The translations under genes were made by a program, and so were the position numbers. This document shows positions 11,747 through 60,074 of a stretch of 64,000 bases of DNA, one piece after another. How positions within the stretch are numbered: position 1 is the stretch's first letter; the number at the start of each line of letters is the position of its first letter. The notes under the pieces were generated by a model. It was not told where the DNA came from. It did not search any database and was given only the letters and a program-made list of their open reading frames with translations. Source of the DNA: Rhodothermales bacterium (GTDB lineage: Bacteria; Bacteroidota; Rhodothermia; Rhodothermales; VXPQ01). The stretch spans positions 310,001 through 374,000 of the forward strand of contig OX638293.1 of assembly GCA_951812335.1 (NCBI GenBank), in the 5' to 3' direction.

Positions 11747-12008
11747 GGGGAGAAAGGCGGCCTCAATAAAAGAAAAACGATAGCCTGCTCGTCGGCTTGT
11801 GTAAAGTAGTTTAGGATTTATCCGACAATTCGCCAAAACAGAAGGCGAATACAGCGGCGCTCCCGCCGTGTCGGCCAGCGCCTTGGGCGACCAGGCATCG
11901 CGTCATAAGGCTTGCGCCGCCTGAAAACCCGTGCCGCGTTTGGGGAGATTTCGCTCGCTTTCTCCTGGGCCGAACTCGAATTGCATAACGATGCGGAGAG
12001 ATTAAAGC

Positions 12009-12056
12009 GCACCCCTCTCAGCCTCTGAACTTCGCGGACTTAATCAGAGTATCCTA
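12009..12056 (-). repeat. Solo end of the dispersed AAGGATACTCTGAT repeat
   Basis: On the minus strand this is AGGATACTCTGATTAAGTCC, then CGCGAAGTTCAGAGGCTG and AGAGGGGTGCG, the same order of motifs as the first 48 bases of the long copies at 46586 and 47962. Similarity stops after GGGGTGCG. The segment can fold as CTCTGA, about 15 bases, TCAGAG. Confidence 0.75.
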
Positions 12057-22663: not shown

Positions 22664-22796
22664 ATTAAGGATACTCTGATCAAAACCACTTCACCCGGCA
22701 CGTTACTTTTACACGTAAAGGGCGTCATGATTTCATCGTTGAAATTAAGGATACTCTGCGGATTCGGGGCATCCCGGACTTACTCAAAGTATCATC
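22664..22796 (-). repeat. Truncated copy of the dispersed repeat
   Basis: From ATTAAGGATACTCTGATCAA it follows the right end of the long copy at 47962-48218 in reverse: shared blocks are TCATGATTTCATCGT and GCGGATTCGG, with a deletion and a second AAGGATACTCTG in between. The other end (CGGACTTACTCAAAGTATCAT) is a degenerate terminal repeat. It ends exactly at the stop of permease D. Confidence 0.65.
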
Positions 22797-30261: not shown

Positions 30262-30654
30262 GGGATACTCTTGCAGCCCTGCCACTCCTTGGGAGCTGAC
30301 GCCAGAGCGCATATCTTTCCAGCCCTGCCCTTCGGGCTGCCGACCCCATCTCCCCCCGCTCTGCCGTTCGCAGCCGTTGCGGCTCCGGCTACAAGAAAGG
30401 CGGACACGCTCCTCTAAGGGTAGAAGGACATCTCCCGGCCGAAGCCTTCCCGAACGGCGGGCGAGCCCCTGCTCCCCTGTTCGCGCATCGCGCACCGGAG
30501 ACAGCAAATCGCATATCGTTTCCTTCCAGCGAATCCTTCCGGGATACTTCTCGTACACCCTTGATGTATTCGCTTGGGATATTCTGAACTTCGCGGACGT
30601 AATCAGAGTATCCCATAGCAATCGCTTCCACGCATAAGCACAACCGCATACGTC
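30262..30654. other. Intergenic region with repeat ends, no gene
   Basis: Between the L31 gene and pspA, 393 bp carry no supported gene. The segment starts with GGGATACTCTT and ends with AATCAGAGTATCCC, i.e. both borders resemble ends of the dispersed repeat, but the interior does not match the long copies. AGCCC/GGGCT near 30320-30340 can form a small hairpin. Confidence 0.5.
30575..30613 (+). repeat. Short hairpin form of the dispersed repeat
   Basis: GGGATATTCTGA and TCAGAGTATCCC pair over 11 of 12 positions around the loop ACTTCGCGGACGTAA. The loop and right arm match the end of the long copies. It lies about 40 bp upstream of the pspA start, with the repeat's outer end facing pspA. Confidence 0.7.
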
Positions 30655-35912: not shown

Positions 35913-36196
35913 GACGGCGGAAAGAAACGGTCCGGAGGAACACGACAAGCCCTGCGAAAAGGGGGAATCGAAAAATAGGGGTATACCGGCTGACCGGCAA
36001 GCGCGTTATGCGCCCTGACGGCGTTCTACCCCGCACGTTGCCGCCAAACCCCTGGCTGGCCAGCCACACAGCCGGTGCTTGGCGCACCGCCGCGTATATA
36101 TGCTTTTTGGCCACCCATAGCTGCGCGAAAACGCTTCGGGAGGTGCGGCTTTAAAGTGGCCTTTAGGGAAAGCCCCTGTTTTATGGCGCGCCCGAA

Positions 36197-37219
36197 TTAC
36201 TCGTCACATGCCGGAAGGGGAGTTTCCCCAATTCCTGCTTCAGATTCCTCCCAGGCATTTCCAGCCAAATCAAAGCGGTAGGTATTGTTGGTGAAACCGG
36301 CGAATATGCCCAGCCCGCCCTCCACGTTGGAATACACGTCAATGGGTTTCGTGAAAATGGGATCGGCCACAAACAGGTAACCGTCCTGCAGGAGAAGGGT
36401 ACGGTTGTACCGCACCTGTTCTTCGCTCAGGCCCGATACCACCAGCATGAAGCGTGGTTCGATTTCCGTTTTGAAAGTGCTCGGTTCGAAGACAATCTCG
36501 AATTCGCGCGTGGCGTTTTCAAAAAGTCGGTCCGAAAAGTAGGGAGTGAAGAAAGGAATGCTGGCATCATCCAGTGCATTTGGCGGTTCGTCCAGATCTT
36601 CCGCATCGGGATAGAAGGACGGATCGGAGCTCTCGAATGTAAGCAGCAAGTAATCGGGCACGCCCTCGGGATCGTCATGGACCGATATGTATCCAGAACC
36701 AGAAAGGCAGGAAGGCGCAACCTGACGGAGTGTCAATTGAAAGTAGGATTTGCCCGGAAGATCTGTCACGCTAAAGCGCAGGCGGTGCCGGGGATCGTCT
36801 GGCAAGTCGGCGCTTGCGGGCGCTATGCCCACGAAGCCCGTTTTCAGCTCGGGAGAGCGGGAAACGGCTCGAACGCTGCCTAGACCGGCATGAGCTGCAT
36901 CAAGCACGTACATTTCACCCTTTACGGGGCGATGCCCCTCCGTCGACCGGTAAGTACCATCCCTGGTGTGTATTAGTGCCTCACGGTAGCCCGATTCTCC
37001 CGTCACCGTCACGGCCGCGTCTTCAACAAACAGTTCCTGCGCAGGCGCTGGGTCCTCAATGGCGACGCTTCTACTGACACGGACAGTCCAAACACTGTCT
37101 GGAGTGAAAAAGCTGTTTACCGCCAGTGCCGGCGTGTAATCCCCGGGATCGCCCAGATCCAGCGGCGTCTCGCAGGCACTGAGTACACCCAGAAGCAGCA
37201 GGCAGCAACGCGTGTGCAT
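36197..37219 (-). CDS. DUF4249-type outer-membrane-associated lipoprotein
   Basis: This 340-residue protein has lipobox GVLSAC (Cys16) and the DUF4249 look: PALAVNSFFTPDSVWTVRVSRS near the N-terminus, repeated beta-rich stretches, and GGLGIFAGFTNNTYRF near the end. In Bacteroidota such proteins pair with TonB-dependent receptors and probably help bind or present a substrate at the outer membrane. Its ATG lies 3 bp after the receptor's stop, so the pair is an operon. The substrate is unknown. The 284 bp beyond its stop, up to moaC, show no gene. Confidence 0.85.
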   Translation of the reverse strand: MHTRCCLLLLGVLSACETPLDLGDPGDYTPALAVNSFFTPDSVWTVRVSRSVAIEDPAPAQELFVEDAAVTVTGESGYREALIHTRDGTYRSTEGHRPVKGEMYVLDAAHAGLGSVRAVSRSPELKTGFVGIAPASADLPDDPRHRLRFSVTDLPGKSYFQLTLRQVAPSCLSGSGYISVHDDPEGVPDYLLLTFESSDPSFYPDAEDLDEPPNALDDASIPFFTPYFSDRLFENATREFEIVFEPSTFKTEIEPRFMLVVSGLSEEQVRYNRTLLLQDGYLFVADPIFTKPIDVYSNVEGGLGIFAGFTNNTYRFDLAGNAWEESEAGIGETPLPACDE

Positions 37220-37222
37220 GGC

Positions 37223-39676
37223 TCAGAATTGCAATTGATAAGATAGGGAGGGAATCCACTGAAACAGCGACACATGCCTCACTTCCACCGGGATCGGTTT
37301 CAACAACGTAGTTCTTAAATCCTGGTCTTCAAGCTTGGTGTAAATGTAGAACGTGTTGCTTCGCCCATACGTATTGTACATTCCCACGGAAATGGTCCGG
37401 ACCGCCCATGACCAAGTCTTCCTGAAGTGAATGCTCACATCAAGCCGGTGATAGTCGGGGGCACGAGAACTGTTGAGCGGCCCAAAGTCCACCAATACGA
37501 TGGGATAGCGGTACAGGACATCTGAATCATCCCCGAGGAATCGACCGACCGGCAGCCAGACCGGGTAGCCGCTTCCATACACCCACGTTGCGGCCAACTC
37601 AATCCCGTTTGTCACCCGGTACTGGCCCACGAGCGAAATGTCATGGCGGCGATCGAATCCGTCCGGAAAAGTATTGCCTCCATTCAGGTTCGCGAACGTC
37701 CGCGTGGATTTACTTAGGGTATAGCCGAGCCACCCTGTCAACCGGCCGGTTTTCTTTTGAGCGAATATCTCCAGCCCGCGCGCGTGGCCGCTTCCTTCTT
37801 CGACCAGTTCCGCCCAATTGAGCACGGCGGAAGCGGCGGCGTTGGCATTCGTTTCATACTCGAGCAGGCGTTGCATGCGCCGCCAGTACGTTTCGAGCGA
37901 CAGTTCGTATCTGCCGCTCAGCGAACTCCATACCAGTCCCCCGGCCAATTGCTGTCCGCGCTGCGGGCGTATTCGGTCCGTACTTGGTATCCACAGATCG
38001 TTTGGAAGGCTGGCCCCGCCTTCTGTCAGCAAATGAATGTACTGCTGCATGGTAACAGCAGACGCTTTGACCGCCATGCGCCCGGACAGCCTTACACTGG
38101 CGTTTAGCCGAGGTTCTACGGACCAGTACGGACCGCCATCTACCAGATAGCCGGAGACCCTAAGGCCCACGTTGACCCGAACCCGACGGTGCAGGAACAG
38201 TTCGTCTTCCACGTACGCAGCAATAGTCCCGGACTTCAGTCTACCTGTCGGAAATTGCGTGAAGGTAACCTCCTGCTCCTCTCCTTCCCCTTCCGTTCGA
38301 ATCCGGGTGCGGCCCGGCTGAACGCGGTGCCAGATTCCCTCCGCCCCGAAACGCAGATAGTGCCGCGAGCCCGCATTATGCTCTATATCTACCTTGGCAG
38401 TACCATCCACAATCCCGGAATCCCAGCCGTTCTCCGATGTCACGGGCTCCTCATTCCTGCCGCCATCGGAGGTGGTAGTCTGCTCCAGGGCATACCGGTA
38501 GGTAGTTATGCCTACGAGGATGTTGGCGAACGTCCGATCATTGACGATGCGGTTCCACCGAAGCGCGGCCAGGCGGTTGCCCCAGCCCGTGTTCGTTTTC
38601 ACTTTATCTCTGGCTGCGTAACGCTTCCGGGGCTCCTGGCGATATGTAAGCAGGTCCCGGCCAGCATAGGCGCTCAGGTACAGGCGGTCGCGATCGGAGA
38701 CTATATAGTTGGCCTTGAAATGAAGGTCGTAGAAGTGCCCGCTGGTCCACTCTTTGGGATTCCGGAAGGGACGCAGGAGCAGGTCAATGAAGCTCCGGCG
38801 CCCGGACAGCAGAAAAGAGGCCCGGTCCTTCTTTAGCGGTCCTTCAATCAGCCCGCGCGACGATACGATACCGACAGCGGCCTCACCCCCGAACCGCTTC
38901 AGGTTTCCCTCCTTCATCGTATAATCCACAACAGAAGAGAGCCGGCCTCCGTACCGGGCCGGAAAGCCACCCTTGAGCAGTTTCACGCTCTTCATGGCCT
39001 GCGCAGGAAAGACGCTGAAAAAGCCGAACACGTGGCTGGGGTTGTACACGGGAAGGCCGTCCAGCAGTATCAGATTCTGGTCTTCCCGTCCTCCCCTGAC
39101 GTAGAGCCCGCTGCTTCCTTCCTGGCCCGACTGCACCCCGGGAAGCAACTGCAGCACTTTCTGGATATCCGGTTCTCCAAGAAGCACTGGCAGACTTTCT
39201 ATCTGAGCGATTTCAATGTTATGCTCGCTCATCTGTATGTCGTCCACGGCCCTGGAAGGATGCGCGACGATCTCTATTTCCTCAAGACGAAACACGCGCG
39301 GTACCAGGGAGATATTCAGGGTCGTGTCCTGCCGCAGGACTATGTCAAACTCTTGCGACTCGTAGCCCACATGCGAGACGATAAACCTTACCTGCCCGGC
39401 GACTGTGGCAAAGCTGTAGAAACCGTACTGGTTGGTCGTGGTCCCCCGCTCGAGCTCCGGGAAATACAGTCCCACGCCGGGAATGCGCTCGCCGCTGGAA
39501 TTATCCTCTACATACCCGCTGATCGTATGCTCCTGCGCGTAGGCCCGGCTACACGGGAGAAGTCCCAAGAACAATAATACCAACACCCTCGCATTGATAT
39601 GGATAGCGGGGACGTGAGAATCGCGGTAGGGTGTGTAGGCGATGGAGCCCTTGCTTAAGCCATTCACCATGTTCAA
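37223..39676 (-). CDS. TonB-dependent outer membrane receptor with carboxypeptidase-like N-terminal domain
   Basis: This 817-residue protein has a signal peptide (VLVLLFLGLLPCSRAYAQ) and a carboxypeptidase D regulatory-like domain (ISGYVEDNSSGERIPGVGLYF). The plug domain has LQLLPGVQSGQEGSSGLYVRGG and LLDGLPVYNPSHVFGFF, and a beta-barrel ends in an aromatic residue (YQLQF). It imports an unidentified ligand through the outer membrane, driven by TonB. It is followed by a DUF4249 lipoprotein. The start at 39676 leaves 30 residues before the hydrophobic core, so a later start is possible. Confidence 0.9.
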   Translation of the reverse strand: MNMVNGLSKGSIAYTPYRDSHVPAIHINARVLVLLFLGLLPCSRAYAQEHTISGYVEDNSSGERIPGVGLYFPELERGTTTNQYGFYSFATVAGQVRFIVSHVGYESQEFDIVLRQDTTLNISLVPRVFRLEEIEIVAHPSRAVDDIQMSEHNIEIAQIESLPVLLGEPDIQKVLQLLPGVQSGQEGSSGLYVRGGREDQNLILLDGLPVYNPSHVFGFFSVFPAQAMKSVKLLKGGFPARYGGRLSSVVDYTMKEGNLKRFGGEAAVGIVSSRGLIEGPLKKDRASFLLSGRRSFIDLLLRPFRNPKEWTSGHFYDLHFKANYIVSDRDRLYLSAYAGRDLLTYRQEPRKRYAARDKVKTNTGWGNRLAALRWNRIVNDRTFANILVGITTYRYALEQTTTSDGGRNEEPVTSENGWDSGIVDGTAKVDIEHNAGSRHYLRFGAEGIWHRVQPGRTRIRTEGEGEEQEVTFTQFPTGRLKSGTIAAYVEDELFLHRRVRVNVGLRVSGYLVDGGPYWSVEPRLNASVRLSGRMAVKASAVTMQQYIHLLTEGGASLPNDLWIPSTDRIRPQRGQQLAGGLVWSSLSGRYELSLETYWRRMQRLLEYETNANAAASAVLNWAELVEEGSGHARGLEIFAQKKTGRLTGWLGYTLSKSTRTFANLNGGNTFPDGFDRRHDISLVGQYRVTNGIELAATWVYGSGYPVWLPVGRFLGDDSDVLYRYPIVLVDFGPLNSSRAPDYHRLDVSIHFRKTWSWAVRTISVGMYNTYGRSNTFYIYTKLEDQDLRTTLLKPIPVEVRHVSLFQWIPSLSYQLQF

Positions 39677-39851
39677 GAAGAAGGAACTGAGAGCAATTAG
39701 TATAAGGATATTCTAAGGATAGCCCTGCTCCGAAAAAAGTCTACAATTGAACGCCACAACCCCCTGCCTACTGCGGAAGCCAGCCAAAGCTGACTTCCGC
39801 ACGCATGAAAAGGGCCCGTTGACGGCGCTTGGCAGAATATCGTTTGTGATC

Positions 39852-39889
39852 TACCCTTCATAGCCGTATGCATACGGCTATGAAGGGTA
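39852..39889. terminator. Perfect 38-bp palindrome after a lipoprotein gene
   Basis: TACCCTTCATAGCCGTATG is followed at once by its exact reverse complement, so both strands can form a 19-bp hairpin with no spacer. It lies 12 bp beyond the stop of the minus-strand lipoprotein gene (39902-40930), where a terminator is expected, but no T-run follows. The rest of 39677-39901 shows no gene; TAAGGATATTCT near 39702 is a weak repeat end. Confidence 0.5.
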
Positions 39890-39901
39890 AAATCTCCGAA
39901 T

Positions 39902-40930
39902 CTATCCGGATCTGGATACGACAGCGCTACAACTACGCCATACACCATCACGATTTCCAGAGTGATCAGTATCTATATTTCCTGTGATGGTTGCAGACCA
40001 TCCGCTATCCGTCATAAATATTGTCTCTATTTGGGTGCCATTGTAAACAGAATGGTCATAATCATCTTCTGATGTATTACCATCGCTGTCGGTAAGCGAG
40101 TAATCGCTCTGTATGCGTACTTGATTAATGGAGTTGCTACGCCATCCATACCACCTTTTTCTTTGGCTTTTTGTACGCGCTCCTGCTGACGCATAGAGCC
40201 AGTAGTCCGTGATCCACGACTTGCCTTGTATTCTCCTTTTTGTTGTAAAATAGCTTGTACATGTTCTATCAACCATCGATTTGCCTACCGCACCAGATGC
40301 GGCGGCGTAACCGGCCCGCTCAATCTCATATGACTCAACACCATCGCCTTGCCTGCTCAGGATGGGCGTGTGATTGGCATGCCTCAAGTCGATGTCTTTC
40401 AAAGATTCTACACTGGATTGAGGGGTTCGGTATACATAGTTACGGGTAACCTTGAATACATCCGAGCCTATCCGAATCTCCCCATCCTTGTTGAGGACTG
40501 CAGCAAAATACGGATCCTCTACTATCTCCAACTGCTCGGCTTCTTCCACATCCAGAAGTGTTTTCTCCACGCCGTCCACCAACTGCTCGGCTCCTTCCGC
40601 ATCCAAGAGTGTCTTCTCCACCTCGTCCATCAACTGCTCCGTGACGGTGCGCAGTGAAATAAACCCATCTTGAAACGGCAATTTATCCAGGGAAGCGGTC
40701 TCTGGGCTTACAAATGCCTTCATGAAATCCGAAAACGCTTCCATGTCCCTGAACGCAAGCCGACCTTCCACAACCGGGACATGCCCGCCCGCTTGCTGTA
40801 ATTGCGGGGCTGTTGCGTTATCGTTGTTTACGTGTATGGGTGACTGGTCACACGCGGCGAGCATGGACAGGAGAAACGATACCAACAATACGTTGGTCCA
40901 CAGGTTAAAAGGGCGTGATGCCGTTTGCAT
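39902..40930 (-). CDS. Predicted lipoprotein of unknown function with a tandem 17-residue repeat
   Basis: This 342-residue protein has a lipobox SMLAAC (Cys27). Residues about 99-132 contain two copies of the unit V-x-x-V-E-K-T-L-L-D-x-E-x-A-E-Q-L, encoded by 51-bp direct repeats (40534-40635). The C-terminal half has several aromatic and Gly/Asn/Asp-rich stretches suggesting a beta-rich domain (SWITDYWLYASAGARTKS, SDYSLTDSDGNTSEDDYD). No family was recognised. The ATG is preceded by GAGGT at a suitable distance. It stands alone between the TonB receptor and dtd. Confidence 0.7.
   Translation of the reverse strand: MQTASRPFNLWTNVLLVSFLLSMLAACDQSPIHVNNDNATAPQLQQAGGHVPVVEGRLAFRDMEAFSDFMKAFVSPETASLDKLPFQDGFISLRTVTEQLMDEVEKTLLDAEGAEQLVDGVEKTLLDVEEAEQLEIVEDPYFAAVLNKDGEIRIGSDVFKVTRNYVYRTPQSSVESLKDIDLRHANHTPILSRQGDGVESYEIERAGYAAASGAVGKSMVDRTCTSYFTTKRRIQGKSWITDYWLYASAGARTKSQRKRWYGWRSNSINQVRIQSDYSLTDSDGNTSEDDYDHSVYNGTQIETIFMTDSGWSATITGNIDTDHSGNRDGVWRSCSAVVSRSG
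40534..40635 (-). repeat. Two tandem 51-bp repeats inside a lipoprotein gene
   Basis: 40534-40584 and 40585-40635 are direct repeats of 51 bp (17 codons), each starting GCTCGGCT and ending CATCAACT or CACCAACT on the plus strand. They differ at several positions. Being a multiple of three, they can expand or contract without breaking the frame. Confidence 0.85.
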
Positions 40931-41478
40931 TGAGTTACCTCGTGTTTGGAGATGAAATGTGGTTTAACGATTTTGGCCAAAACCCGCGCCTCGGCCTTCA
41001 GCCAGTTCGACAGACCCAAGGCTACGCCGAAACCGCCCGTAGAGCGCGACGGGATCGCCGCGGATGCCATTCACGGCTACTCCTGAACTGGGTACGGCTA
41101 CGCTGAGCCTCCGTATACGGGTTACGCTGTTCCCACAGAGTAGTATTGCATTTGAACAATAAGTGTTTGCTAACTGAGAGGAATGCAGCTGCCGAAGAGG
41201 CAGCGCCAGGATAGCAAGAAACCCGGCTCTTATCCAAGTGCCGGTCGATGTTTTCACAAAGACTTAATGGCCCAAGAGGACCGAAGCGCCGCGCCGCGGA
41301 GCCGAGCTCGACGCGGCAGGGACAATGGATACACACGTGCGAGCCAAACGTGCCCAACCGTGGGTTGAAGATCTCAACCCGGGACATAAACGCGCCCTGC
41401 AGTCGGCCCTATCCCCAAAAACGCGCCGTCTATATCTCGCCCGGTGGAACCGGTTTGCCGCCCGCCCCGCCACCATGG
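40931..41478. other. Intergenic region without a supported gene
   Basis: These 548 bp separate the 5' end of the lipoprotein gene from the 3' end of dtd. Open frames here have no start context or recognisable product. The last bases before 40930 contain the GAGGT ribosome-binding site of the lipoprotein gene. No repeat end or strong hairpin was noticed. Confidence 0.5.
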
Positions 41479-41952
41479 CTATGGCTCCTCCCTGCCACTC
41501 CGCTTACCCTGACGGCGTTCCACCCAAAGCGTCACCGGCCCATCGTTCACGAGATGCACCTCCATCATGGCGCCGAACACGCCGGTCCGGACGGGTGCGG
41601 CGAGTTGTGCGGCCATCCGCTCCACGAACGATTCGTACAGCGCTTCGGCCTGTTGGGTAGCCGCCGCATCCACGAAGGAAGGCCGATTGCCACGCCGCAC
41701 ATCCCCATACAATGTGAACTGCGACACGACAAGCGCCTCTCCGCCCGTTTCGACGATCGAACGGTTCATCCTGCCTTGCTCGTCGGAAAAGATGCGGAGA
41801 CGGGCGCACTTGCCGGCCAGCCAATCCGCTTCCGCTTCCGTATCCGTACGGTGGGCGCCGAGAAGAATCAGCATACCGGGGCCTATGCGCCCGACCTCTT
41901 CCCCCTCGACCCGTACCGACGCTTCCCGTACCCGTTGAATCAATGCAACCAT
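41479..41952 (-). CDS. dtd: D-aminoacyl-tRNA deacylase
   Basis: This 157-residue protein removes D-amino acids from tRNA (also Gly from tRNA-Ala). Diagnostic motifs are MVALIQRV at the start, SQFTLYGD in the middle (the Ser-Gln-Phe-Thr catalytic stretch), GNRPSF and NDGPVTLWVE at the end (cross-subunit Gly-Pro motif). ATG 41952 is chosen because GAGG lies about 8 bases upstream; it follows the rdgB stop by 8 bp, so the genes are coupled. Slightly longer frames from 41964 use TTG. Confidence 0.92.
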   Translation of the reverse strand: MVALIQRVREASVRVEGEEVGRIGPGMLILLGAHRTDTEAEADWLAGKCARLRIFSDEQGRMNRSIVETGGEALVVSQFTLYGDVRRGNRPSFVDAAATQQAEALYESFVERMAAQLAAPVRTGVFGAMMEVHLVNDGPVTLWVERRQGKRSGREEP

Positions 41953-46576: not shown

Positions 46577-46585
46577 TGCAAAATT

Positions 46586-46848
46586 GAAGGATACTCTGAT
46601 TTAAGTCCACGAAGTTCAGAGGCTGCGAGGGGTGCGCCGGCAAGGAATGACGAAGCAGTGTGGCGGGCCCCACACAATGAGGAATGACACGGCCAGCGTG
46701 CCCCTCGCAGCCTCCCGAAGGGCGCTTCACGTTTGCGATGCCCCGAATCCGCAGTGTTTCCCTCTGATTTCAACGATGGAACCATGACATCCTATCTTCG
46801 TGAACGTGAAGCGCTGATCGAAGTGGACTTGATCAGAGTATCCTTAAC
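46586..46848 (-). repeat. Long copy of the dispersed repeat with two stem-loops (copy 1)
   Basis: About 262 bp flanked by terminal inverted repeats (AAGGATACTCTGAT on the left, ATCAGAGTATCCTT on the right, extended by AAGTCCAC on both sides). Inner stems: GAGGCTGCGAGGGG (46619-46632) pairs with 46701-46714, and GTGTGG (46658-46663) with CCACAC (46670-46675). A second stem pairs GCGCTTCACGTT (46722-46733) with AACGTGAAGCGC (46803-46814). It ends 10 bp upstream of the 46576 start. 46849-46980 holds no gene. Confidence 0.85.
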
Positions 46849-46980
46849 ATGAAAACGGCCTTTCGTACCGTCAACGATACCGCCCGGAATCGGTTCTCCC
46901 GGCGATACCGGGAAGCATTTCTATCATTGCCGGCGCGAGGCGCTTATCGGCGCCCCTTCCGCCTCGGGTAAAACACCGCC

Positions 46981-47961
46981 TTACAACCATCCCTGCGCGC
47001 GATACCATGCAATGGCGTCCGCAACCCCTTCCTTCAACGAGATGGCGGGGCTATAGCCGAGAAGGCGCTGCGCCTTCTCGATAGAGCACATCTTGCAGGC
47101 ATACCTGATTTCACGCGCCTTTTCCCGGTGGAAGGGCGGCAGCATCCCGCCCAGCCGGGAAACCTCTTCCACAATCGCCCCCAGCATACTGACAAGAGGG
47201 GATGGTACAGATACAGTAATAGCCCCTCGACCCAGCGCCGCCATCGTTGCCTCCTTGAGATCGCGCCACGAACAGAATGCCTCGCCGCCGAGAAAAAACG
47301 TTTCCCCCACGGCAGCCGGCGCCTCCGCCGCAGCCATCATGCCTTGCACCAGATCGGCGACGTGAACCAGACTCATTGTCGGCTCGCGGGTATTTCCGAC
47401 CACCGGACAAATACACCTGTTCACTACCCGAAAAAACGTAAACAGGTCGGCTTCTCTCGGCCCATATACGGTGGGAGGACGCACGATCGTTATGGGCAAG
47501 CGATCCTGCCAGACGGATAACGCCTCCTCCATACGGGCTTTGCTTGCACCGTAGCGGCTCAAGGGCTGCAGGGCGCTTTCCTCATTGGCTATGCGGTCAG
47601 AGCACCGCCCAATGACAGCGAGGGTGCTGGTAACCACTACGCGCCGCACTCCCGGATTCACGCGAGCCAGCACCTCCATCAGGCGGAGCGTCGCCTCTAC
47701 ATTCCCCTGCCGGAAGATATCGTCGTCGCGAGCGCGCGTGACGCCGGCATTATGATACACGTAATCCACACCACGCACCGCATCGGCGATGAGCGCCTCA
47801 TCGAACAAATCGCCGCGCACCTCCCGGATCGGAAGATTCTCCAGCCATTTGCGCCGGGTTCGGACGAGGCATCGCACTTCGCCTGCACCCCGATGCAGCA
47901 ATTCCTCGACGAGATGGCTCCCTATGAACCCCGTACCTCCGGTAACGAATGCTTTCTTCAT
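46981..47961 (-). CDS. NAD(P)-dependent sugar epimerase/dehydratase family protein (extended SDR)
   Basis: This 326-residue protein has the Rossmann motif TGGTGFIGSHL at residues 8-18, the typical HNAGV and TSTLAVIG segments, a YGASK active-site motif (Tyr and Lys), and PPTVYGPRE. It is an extended SDR acting on a nucleotide-sugar or similar substrate; the substrate is not determined. The ATG at 47961 immediately follows the outer end of a long dispersed repeat (minus-strand ...GAGTATCCT then ATG), so the whole leader is repeat sequence. Confidence 0.88.
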   Translation of the reverse strand: MKKAFVTGGTGFIGSHLVEELLHRGAGEVRCLVRTRRKWLENLPIREVRGDLFDEALIADAVRGVDYVYHNAGVTRARDDDIFRQGNVEATLRLMEVLARVNPGVRRVVVTSTLAVIGRCSDRIANEESALQPLSRYGASKARMEEALSVWQDRLPITIVRPPTVYGPREADLFTFFRVVNRCICPVVGNTREPTMSLVHVADLVQGMMAAAEAPAAVGETFFLGGEAFCSWRDLKEATMAALGRGAITVSVPSPLVSMLGAIVEEVSRLGGMLPPFHREKAREIRYACKMCSIEKAQRLLGYSPAISLKEGVADAIAWYRAQGWL

Positions 47962-48218
47962 AGGATACTCTGATTAAGTCCGCAAAGCTCAGAGGCTTGC
48001 GAGGGGCGGGCTGGCAAGGAATGACGAAGCAGTGTGGTAGGCCCCACATAATGAGGAATCACGCGGTCAGCGTGCTCCTCGCAGCCTCCCGAAGGGCACG
48101 TCACGTCCGCGACGCTCCGAATCCGCAATGCTTCCCCTGATTCCGACGATGAAATCATGATAACCTGTACTTGCGAACGTGACGCGCTGAGCGAAGCGGT
48201 TTTGATCAGAGTATCCTA
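47962..48218 (-). repeat. Long copy of the dispersed repeat with two stem-loops (copy 2)
   Basis: About 257 bp with the same order of parts as 46586-46848 and the same orientation. Terminal repeat AGGATACTCTGATT on the left, ATCAGAGTATCCT on the right. The second stem is GCACGTCACGT (48096-48106) with ACGTGACGCGC (48177-48187). Compared with the other copy, the pair T-A (46726/46810) is here G-C (48100/48183), so pairing is kept. The left end touches the start codon of the SDR gene. Confidence 0.85.
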
Positions 48219-53925: not shown

Positions 53926-53975
53926 CAAGGATACTCCGATTAAGTCCACAAAGCTCAGAGGCTTAGAAGGGTGCG
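53926..53975 (-). repeat. Solo end of the dispersed repeat after hprK
   Basis: AAGGATACTCCGATTAAGTC, then CACAAAGCTCAGAGGCTT and AGAAGGGTGCG, matches the first 50 bases of the long copies in the same orientation. It ends 7 bp before the hprK stop. CTCAGAGG-type pairing with the first arm is weaker here (CTCCGA/TCAGAG). Confidence 0.7.
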
Positions 53976-59392: not shown

Positions 59393-59435
59393 TAAGGATA
59401 TTCTGATCGAAACCGCTTCGATCAGAATATCCTTA
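59393..59435. repeat. Perfect hairpin form of the dispersed repeat
   Basis: TAAGGATATTCTGATCGAA (59393-59411) and its exact reverse complement TTCGATCAGAATATCCTTA (59417-59435) flank the loop ACCGC. The arms match the terminal repeat of the long copies with no interior. The TAA stop of the pgsA-like gene lies inside it, so it may act as a transcription terminator or RNA stabiliser between pgsA and ftsY. Confidence 0.85.
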
Positions 59436-60074
59436 ATCCATTGAATCGGGCTCTGCACCCATCGCACCATTCGCTGCGCCCGGCGCAGCCGCCAAAGGCG
59501 ACTCGCTTTGCTTGATCAGTCTCGCATATCTGAACCCGTACGTTGCGAAAGACCCTGCCAAAAACCCCGTCGTCGCATATAAACAGAATCGCATCACCGG
59601 CTCGTCGGCCCGCATAAGCGCCGCAAGCAGGGTAACTGTCACAGCCCCTGCGGCTATCTTGCCCCACCAATCACTCATTTCCACACGCCCTGTGCGATGC
59701 GCGAGCATTCCCGACCCCATCAGAATGAGCAGATCCCGCGCGACCAGCACAATCAGAAACCATACAGGAAGCATTCCCCGGAGAACCAGCGCAAGCACGA
59801 TGGCCATACCGGCCATCTTGTCGGCCAGCGGATCCAGTATTTTTCCCCAATCCGACACCCTGCCCGACCAGCGCGCTATCCGCCCGTCGAACCAGTCGCT
59901 CGCAATCGTAACGGCAAGCAGCGCAAAAATCCAGCGGAGCGGACCGTCGACCAGGATCAGCCATACGACAGGAACCGCCAGAAGGACCCGCCCCATGCTG
60001 AGTACGTTCGGGACGGTCCATACATTCCCGTCGGGGCGAAAGCGCCCGAACCTACGGGGTAGCATCATCGGCAT
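59433..60074 (-). CDS. CDP-alcohol phosphatidyltransferase (PgsA-like)
   Basis: This 213-residue protein has six or so membrane helices and the CDP-alcohol motif from SDWFDGRIAR through GKILDPLADK (D-x2-DG-x2-AR-x8-G-x3-D-x3-D), all key Asp residues present. It likely makes phosphatidylglycerophosphate or a related phospholipid in the membrane. The first ATG at 60074 overlaps the ispG end by 23 bp; later ATGs at 60068 and 60065 are also possible. Confidence 0.87.
   Translation of the reverse strand: MPMMLPRRFGRFRPDGNVWTVPNVLSMGRVLLAVPVVWLILVDGPLRWIFALLAVTIASDWFDGRIARWSGRVSDWGKILDPLADKMAGMAIVLALVLRGMLPVWFLIVLVARDLLILMGSGMLAHRTGRVEMSDWWGKIAAGAVTVTLLAALMRADEPVMRFCLYATTGFLAGSFATYGFRYARLIKQSESPLAAAPGAANGAMGAEPDSMD

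Follow-up and report, generated by a model that had tools for sequence, protein, structure and literature searches.

A new MITE family of probable IS5 origin, with a conserved and probably single-stranded fold, in an uncultured Rhodothermales genome

The closest described systems are short structured repeats of other bacteria and insertion sequences of the IS5 family. BrickBuilt, MITE293 and MITE700 of Porphyromonas gingivalis are short, have IS5-family ends and predicted stem-loops, and occur in several copies per genome (PMC4596501). According to the portion of PMC2229807 drawn on here, the enterobacterial ERIC, or IRU, is an intergenic structured repeat of 127 bp with inverted ends and TA termini, for which orientation to genes matters and which is co-transcribed with genes in Yersinia, and the Correia or NEMIS repeat of Neisseria is a MITE with 24-bp ends and TA termini whose transcript folds and is a proposed RNase III substrate; no three-way junction is described for NEMIS in that portion, in which respect it differs from the element reported here. 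In the IS5 group of ISXfu2 the ends read GGA..(G/C)TCTGAT(C/T)AA and are bordered by 4-bp repeats, and ISXfu2 itself, an annotated IS5 relative, has the ends GGAAGGTCTGATCAA and GGATGGTCTGATTAA with CTAG flanking both sides. The element that we describe shares the ends and the 4-bp bordering repeats of this group, and transposase relics in a sister genome fall within the IS5 family, whereas the element has no transposase gene and its interior shows no likeness to the IS relics beyond the ends when compared by eye. In contrast to ERIC, it is ~255 bp long and uses 4-bp TWWA targets. BrickBuilt lacks a target duplication of constant length, whereas here the duplication is constantly 4 bp, and a three-way junction shared among copies, covariation over 136 copies and other end sequences further distinguish the element from the BrickBuilt group (PMC4596501).

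We analysed a window of 64,000 nt (the whole stretch of DNA under study), in which two repeats represent one short, non-coding bacterial MITE. The original prediction had described two copies sharing terminal inverted repeats and two stem-loops, all of which are present by repeat search and RNA folds, but it did not identify the elements as IS5-related MITEs. In the repeat search of the window, the copies align over 139, 84 and 24 nt with identities of 87%, 80% and 88%, respectively, the 32-nt end arms of copy 2 are 81% complementary, and the copy 1 stem 46619-46641/46692-46714 is 87% complementary. The exact element bounds, GGATAC to GTATCC, are 46589-46843 for copy 1 and 47963-48216 for copy 2. 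Both copies are intergenic with neighbouring genes on the minus strand: copy 1 lies 12 nt upstream of the gene for a 1238-aa protein, which we take to resemble the E1 component of 2-oxoglutarate dehydrogenase, and copy 2 adjoins the start codon of the gene for a 326-aa protein, presumably similar to an NAD-dependent epimerase. The target duplication of copy 2 is imperfect (CATA on the left, TAAT on the right). The family members and their parts in the window are as follows.

12007-12055, minus strand: left-end fragment of the MITE family
22665-22779, minus strand: partial copy of the MITE family
30583-30614, minus strand: left-end fragment of the MITE family
46585-46588, no strand: left target-site duplication of copy 1 (TGAA); 4-bp duplication genome-wide, uninterrupted sequence in sister genomes
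46589-46843, plus strand: MITE copy 1 (GGATAC...GTATCC); site empty in OX638295.1 (L061) and JANQSQ010000525.1 (L062)
46589-46617, plus strand: 5' arm of the copy 1 outer stem P1, the left terminal inverted repeat; partner 46816-46843
46619-46714, plus strand: copy 1 arm P2, with covarying tip hairpin 46658-46675 (GTGTGG...CCACAC); reference pairs 75-90, 76-89, 42-123, 47-118
46721-46815, plus strand: copy 1 arm P3, including the pair 46726-46810, with tip hairpin 46765-46784; reference pairs 142-226, 182-199
46816-46843, plus strand: 3' arm of the copy 1 outer stem P1, the right terminal inverted repeat
46844-46847, no strand: right target-site duplication of copy 1 (TTAA)
47959-47962, no strand: 4-mer to the left of copy 2 (CATA), which overlaps the start codon of gene 46981-47961
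47963-48216, plus strand: MITE copy 2; site empty in L061 and L062
47992-48088, plus strand: copy 2 arm P2, from the RNA fold
48095-48188, plus strand: copy 2 arm P3, including G48100-C48183, from the RNA fold and copy alignment
53927-53975, plus strand: left-end fragment of the MITE family
59393-59436, no strand: 44-bp end-to-end palindrome, a deletion derivative; site empty in a sister genome

The two structured repeats were thus correctly seen, but the family is far larger: a covariance model built from 30 copies gave at least 150 matches in the 2,686,407-bp genome, and at least 116 near-full-length copies (250 nt or more) were found in this way. The end motif GGATACTCTGA, with at most one mismatch, had 502 matches compared with 10 for the reversed control. 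When genomes were partitioned by taxon, the family was present in 6/6 genomes of one Rhodothermales genus and absent from 34 further genomes of the order and, with stricter filters, from 239 other genomes of the class. Viral contigs contained no exact match to the MITE core, and a literature search found no paper on this MITE.

Most copies carry the terminal inverted repeats GGATACTCTGAT...ATCAGAGTATCC. Across 136 copies, the 4-bp direct repeats beside them are identical at 383 of 544 positions, as opposed to 257 ± 9 in shuffles (z = 13.8), with no positive signal for a duplication of 3 or 5 bp. The targets are AT-rich, mostly TTAA, TATA and TTTA, and belong to the broad class TWWA. At both window sites the sequence is uninterrupted in two sister genomes (at the copy 1 site, L062 reads GCAAAATTAGCATGA), and across 404 kb of synteny numerous further copies, along with derivatives of 40-80 bp, face empty counterparts. 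Additionally, some syntenic sites hold a full copy in one genome but, in the other, a deletion form of 82-84 bp or a tandem form. We assign MITE family status because the element is multicopy, with shared ends, a 4-bp duplication, empty sites and IS5 relics bearing the same ends. No copies were found inside called genes. The copy length ranges from 246 to 274 nt over the modelled span, with lengths falling in all three phases, and no three-base periodicity of substitutions was found in the element, for which reason a coding role of the open minus-strand frame was rejected. Minus-strand frame 2 is fully open in 53/136 copies, with a median open run of 81 codons. Two other identities were discarded: an IS630 or Tc1-mariner origin with a TA duplication, suspected early from the flanks, because the duplication is 4 bp and none of the six genomes contains PF13358 (DDE_3, the IS630-type transposase), and a REP/RAYT identity because there is no Y1 transposase partner (no PF01797 in the six genomes).

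Upon examining the sister genome G004, we observe broken DDE_Tnp_1 elements that bear the MITE's own ends; one of them (L176) has the ends GGATACTCTGATTTAATCC...CCGGATTGATCAGAGTATCC and an internal deletion, and its right end recurs in two others (L169, L173). The window's own genome also has a decayed right end, at 2685034, accompanied by a transposase remnant. The transposase relics match the NCBIfam IS5 model NF033581 (E 2e-40) and PF01609. YTAR is the target of this IS5 group, and the MITE departs from it: YTAR accounts for 29/136 left sites among the listed 4-mers, with TTAA the commonest and TWWA the broader class. No multi-copy transposase was recognised in the 404-kb and 460-kb stretches and no intact IS5-type transposase was found in the six genomes; because of the latter, mobilisation by such an enzyme is something that we infer, and, given the broken IS5-family elements with the same ends, such a transposase very likely moved the MITE. 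These findings suggest that the family outlived its transposase in this uncultured Rhodothermales genus.

Both window copies fold as a three-way junction, with an outer stem P1 formed from the ends and inner arms P2 and P3 with tip hairpins. The RNA fold of copy 1 has −133.1 kcal/mol (z = −10.2) and that of copy 2 −119.4 kcal/mol (z = −7.0), with no shuffle as stable in either case. The compensatory change on which the original prediction rested, T46726-A46810 in one copy and G48100-C48183 in the other, is real and also varies between TA and GC across the family: its column pair holds UA in 18, GC in 7 and unpaired bases in 5 of 30 copies, and TA in 86, GC in 33 and GA in 17 of 136 copies, ranking 3 of 33,411 column pairs by the APC-corrected G statistic. 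In the 30 copies, 97% of the cells are paired, compared with 32-44% after sliding the partners, and 13 pairs have changes on both sides, compared with 7.3 ± 1.7 in shuffles. In the 136 copies, structure pairs make up 4/10 and 7/20 of the top covarying column pairs (0.02 and 0.04 expected). The outermost reference pair, 4-260, is among the top covarying pairs and belongs to the target duplication rather than to the element, so its covariation was rejected as structural and the pair was omitted from the 30-copy pairing test and the terminal-branch counts. Reference positions 31 and 234 (window 46615 and 46818) form a strongly covarying, non-standard junction pair, C-G in 67 copies and T-T in 43, at rank 4 among all column pairs. 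An R-scape-style null, in which substitutions were redistributed on the tree, gave no significant pair; its null scores exceeded all observed ones and it was poorly calibrated, and covariation was judged by rank among all 33,411 column pairs in its place. As the tree null gave no significant pair, we make no formal claim of covariation beyond phylogeny. The earlier suggestion of a selected structure accordingly holds in part: pairing is kept over many copies, covaries and favours G-U over A-C, but the tree-based covariation null was not passed.

Departures on the plus strand of the 136 copies are G-U in 943 cells and A-C in 183. On terminal branches, we observe 180 G-U, 102 A-C and 101 other mismatches, compared with 271, 293 and 325 expected from loop rates; loop columns may evolve faster for other reasons, and the absolute depletion is therefore less certain than the contrast between G-U and A-C. 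Use as double-stranded DNA, or template switching, would leave G-U equal to A-C, so the inequality points to a single-stranded fold of the plus strand; it favours selection acting on that fold, and the selected form would probably be RNA. The pairing of a MITE could instead be kept by mutation, with template switching in replication copying one hairpin arm onto the other while the fold goes unused. Switching between hairpin arms is a documented mechanism that can yield double changes (PMC8794818), and pair 75-90, which is TA in 124 copies or CG in 12 with no intermediate, fits it, as do several double changes that are transversions without a G-U step. It is nevertheless blind to strand, and is weakened by the 943 against 183 cells, by the terminal events, and by G-U pairs kept at many positions in most copies, which leaves it rather unlikely. 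Strong folding and covariation would also be expected of a stand-alone, non-mobile family of structured non-coding RNA genes (riboswitch-like or sRNA), but target duplications and empty sites refute this as the sole explanation, and the ends common to IS5 relics, the genome-wide scatter of at least 116 near-full-length copies and the lack of any Rfam match above the gathering threshold (best E 0.67, chance level) make it highly improbable.

A further alternative concerns what becomes of copies in place, for which the comparison covers two single-contig genomes, G000 and G004. The 11 full copies common to both differ at 28/2877 sites (~1%), compared with a divergence of 12.0% for the remaining intergenic DNA, 4.0% for codon positions 1 and 2 and 14.7% for third positions; the 25 bp immediately beyond these copies differ by 5.6% and the flanks by about 7%, and the drop in divergence is abrupt at the ends of the element. 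Shared copies include L205/L278, L012/L256 and L014/L044. The nearest paralogs of shared copies are 86-98% identical, so paralog mixing does not account for the ~1% divergence, and the choice of G004 copies among those with the best scores, a bias towards conserved copies, cannot yield 0-8 differences where ~30 are expected. When genes are called from the flanks only, 77 left ends point towards a gene start and 31 towards a gene end (p = 1e-5), the figures for right ends being 52 and 60, respectively; in tandem gene pairs, 42 copies are antisense and 18 sense. This slow change in place and the bias towards gene starts are what a domesticated regulatory RNA or leader would produce, each copy serving its adjoining gene under purifying selection, but most sites are not common to both genomes (12/53 sampled G004 copies have a G000 counterpart), the elements and fragments aligned in the 404-kb stretch diverge by 10%, and the comparison rests on two genomes, so that domestication is possible though doubtful.

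The reading that we prefer, to which we give a probability of about three in four, is that an IS5-type transposase moved the MITE, that the plus-strand fold has been selected, and that copies with the left end towards a gene start have been preferentially kept. Recognition of the ends GGATACTCTGATNAA by the transposase would lead to insertion of the MITE between genes into AT-rich 4-bp targets, with duplication of the 4 bp. Copies would then diverge while the plus-strand three-way junction is kept by selection on the single-stranded form, most likely RNA, and after insertion those with the left end towards a gene start would be preferentially retained. A copy so placed is read on the minus strand when co-transcribed with that gene; in the preferred orientation it is the less stable strand that enters the mRNA of the left neighbour. 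A search for promoter and terminator motifs found none that accounts for the orientation bias, and an outward promoter at the left end, which gave no clear signal, was rejected as its cause. Orientation-dependent effects are shown by ERIC, in the portion of PMC2229807 drawn on here, and by BrickBuilt (PMC4596501), and by analogy these would be the closest precedent for the bias towards gene starts. As a guess from the parallels with ERIC and NEMIS, the effect on neighbouring genes may be that of a leader, of a processing site or of mere tolerance.

MITEs of this kind are known, and it is the one-strand fold signal and the near-stasis of shared copies that are unusual. More than 100 diverged copies with empty sites in relatives offer a test of selection against template switching as the source of arm complementarity; the strand asymmetry of G-U and A-C provides one, and its outcome favours selection. 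If conservation in place holds in more species, MITEs would have been recruited genome-wide as regulatory RNA. It is also conceivable, although we consider it unlikely, that the spread of the family, or else the host, depends on its folded plus-strand RNA, given the ~10% differences among copies, the near-stasis in place, the one end facing gene starts and the same-site, same-orientation hits across species; if true, the genome would contain, across its whole length, a set of mobile RNAs that are domesticated and selected for structure.

Same-site copies in G005 and G003 are mostly nearer to other paralogs. At certain sites, different species carry different family copies in a shared orientation (L058/L017, L039/L273, L150/L164), which suggests repeated insertion at what may be insertion hot spots. 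Palindromes of ~40-45 bp (window 59393-59436, G000 452798-452840, G004 463760-463793) resemble left and right ends fused at a common TCAGAG, and some of their sites are empty in the other species; they appear to be deletion derivatives and are perhaps mobile themselves. Tandem or nested MITE copies are present in G000 at 563528-564050, 565433-565955, 1303982-1304676 and 206724-207243, and the unit at 563528 is flanked by a perfect duplication of CATA and has its site empty in G004. Finally, window positions 36031-41506, ~5.5 kb in G000, are missing between aligned flanks in OX638295.1.
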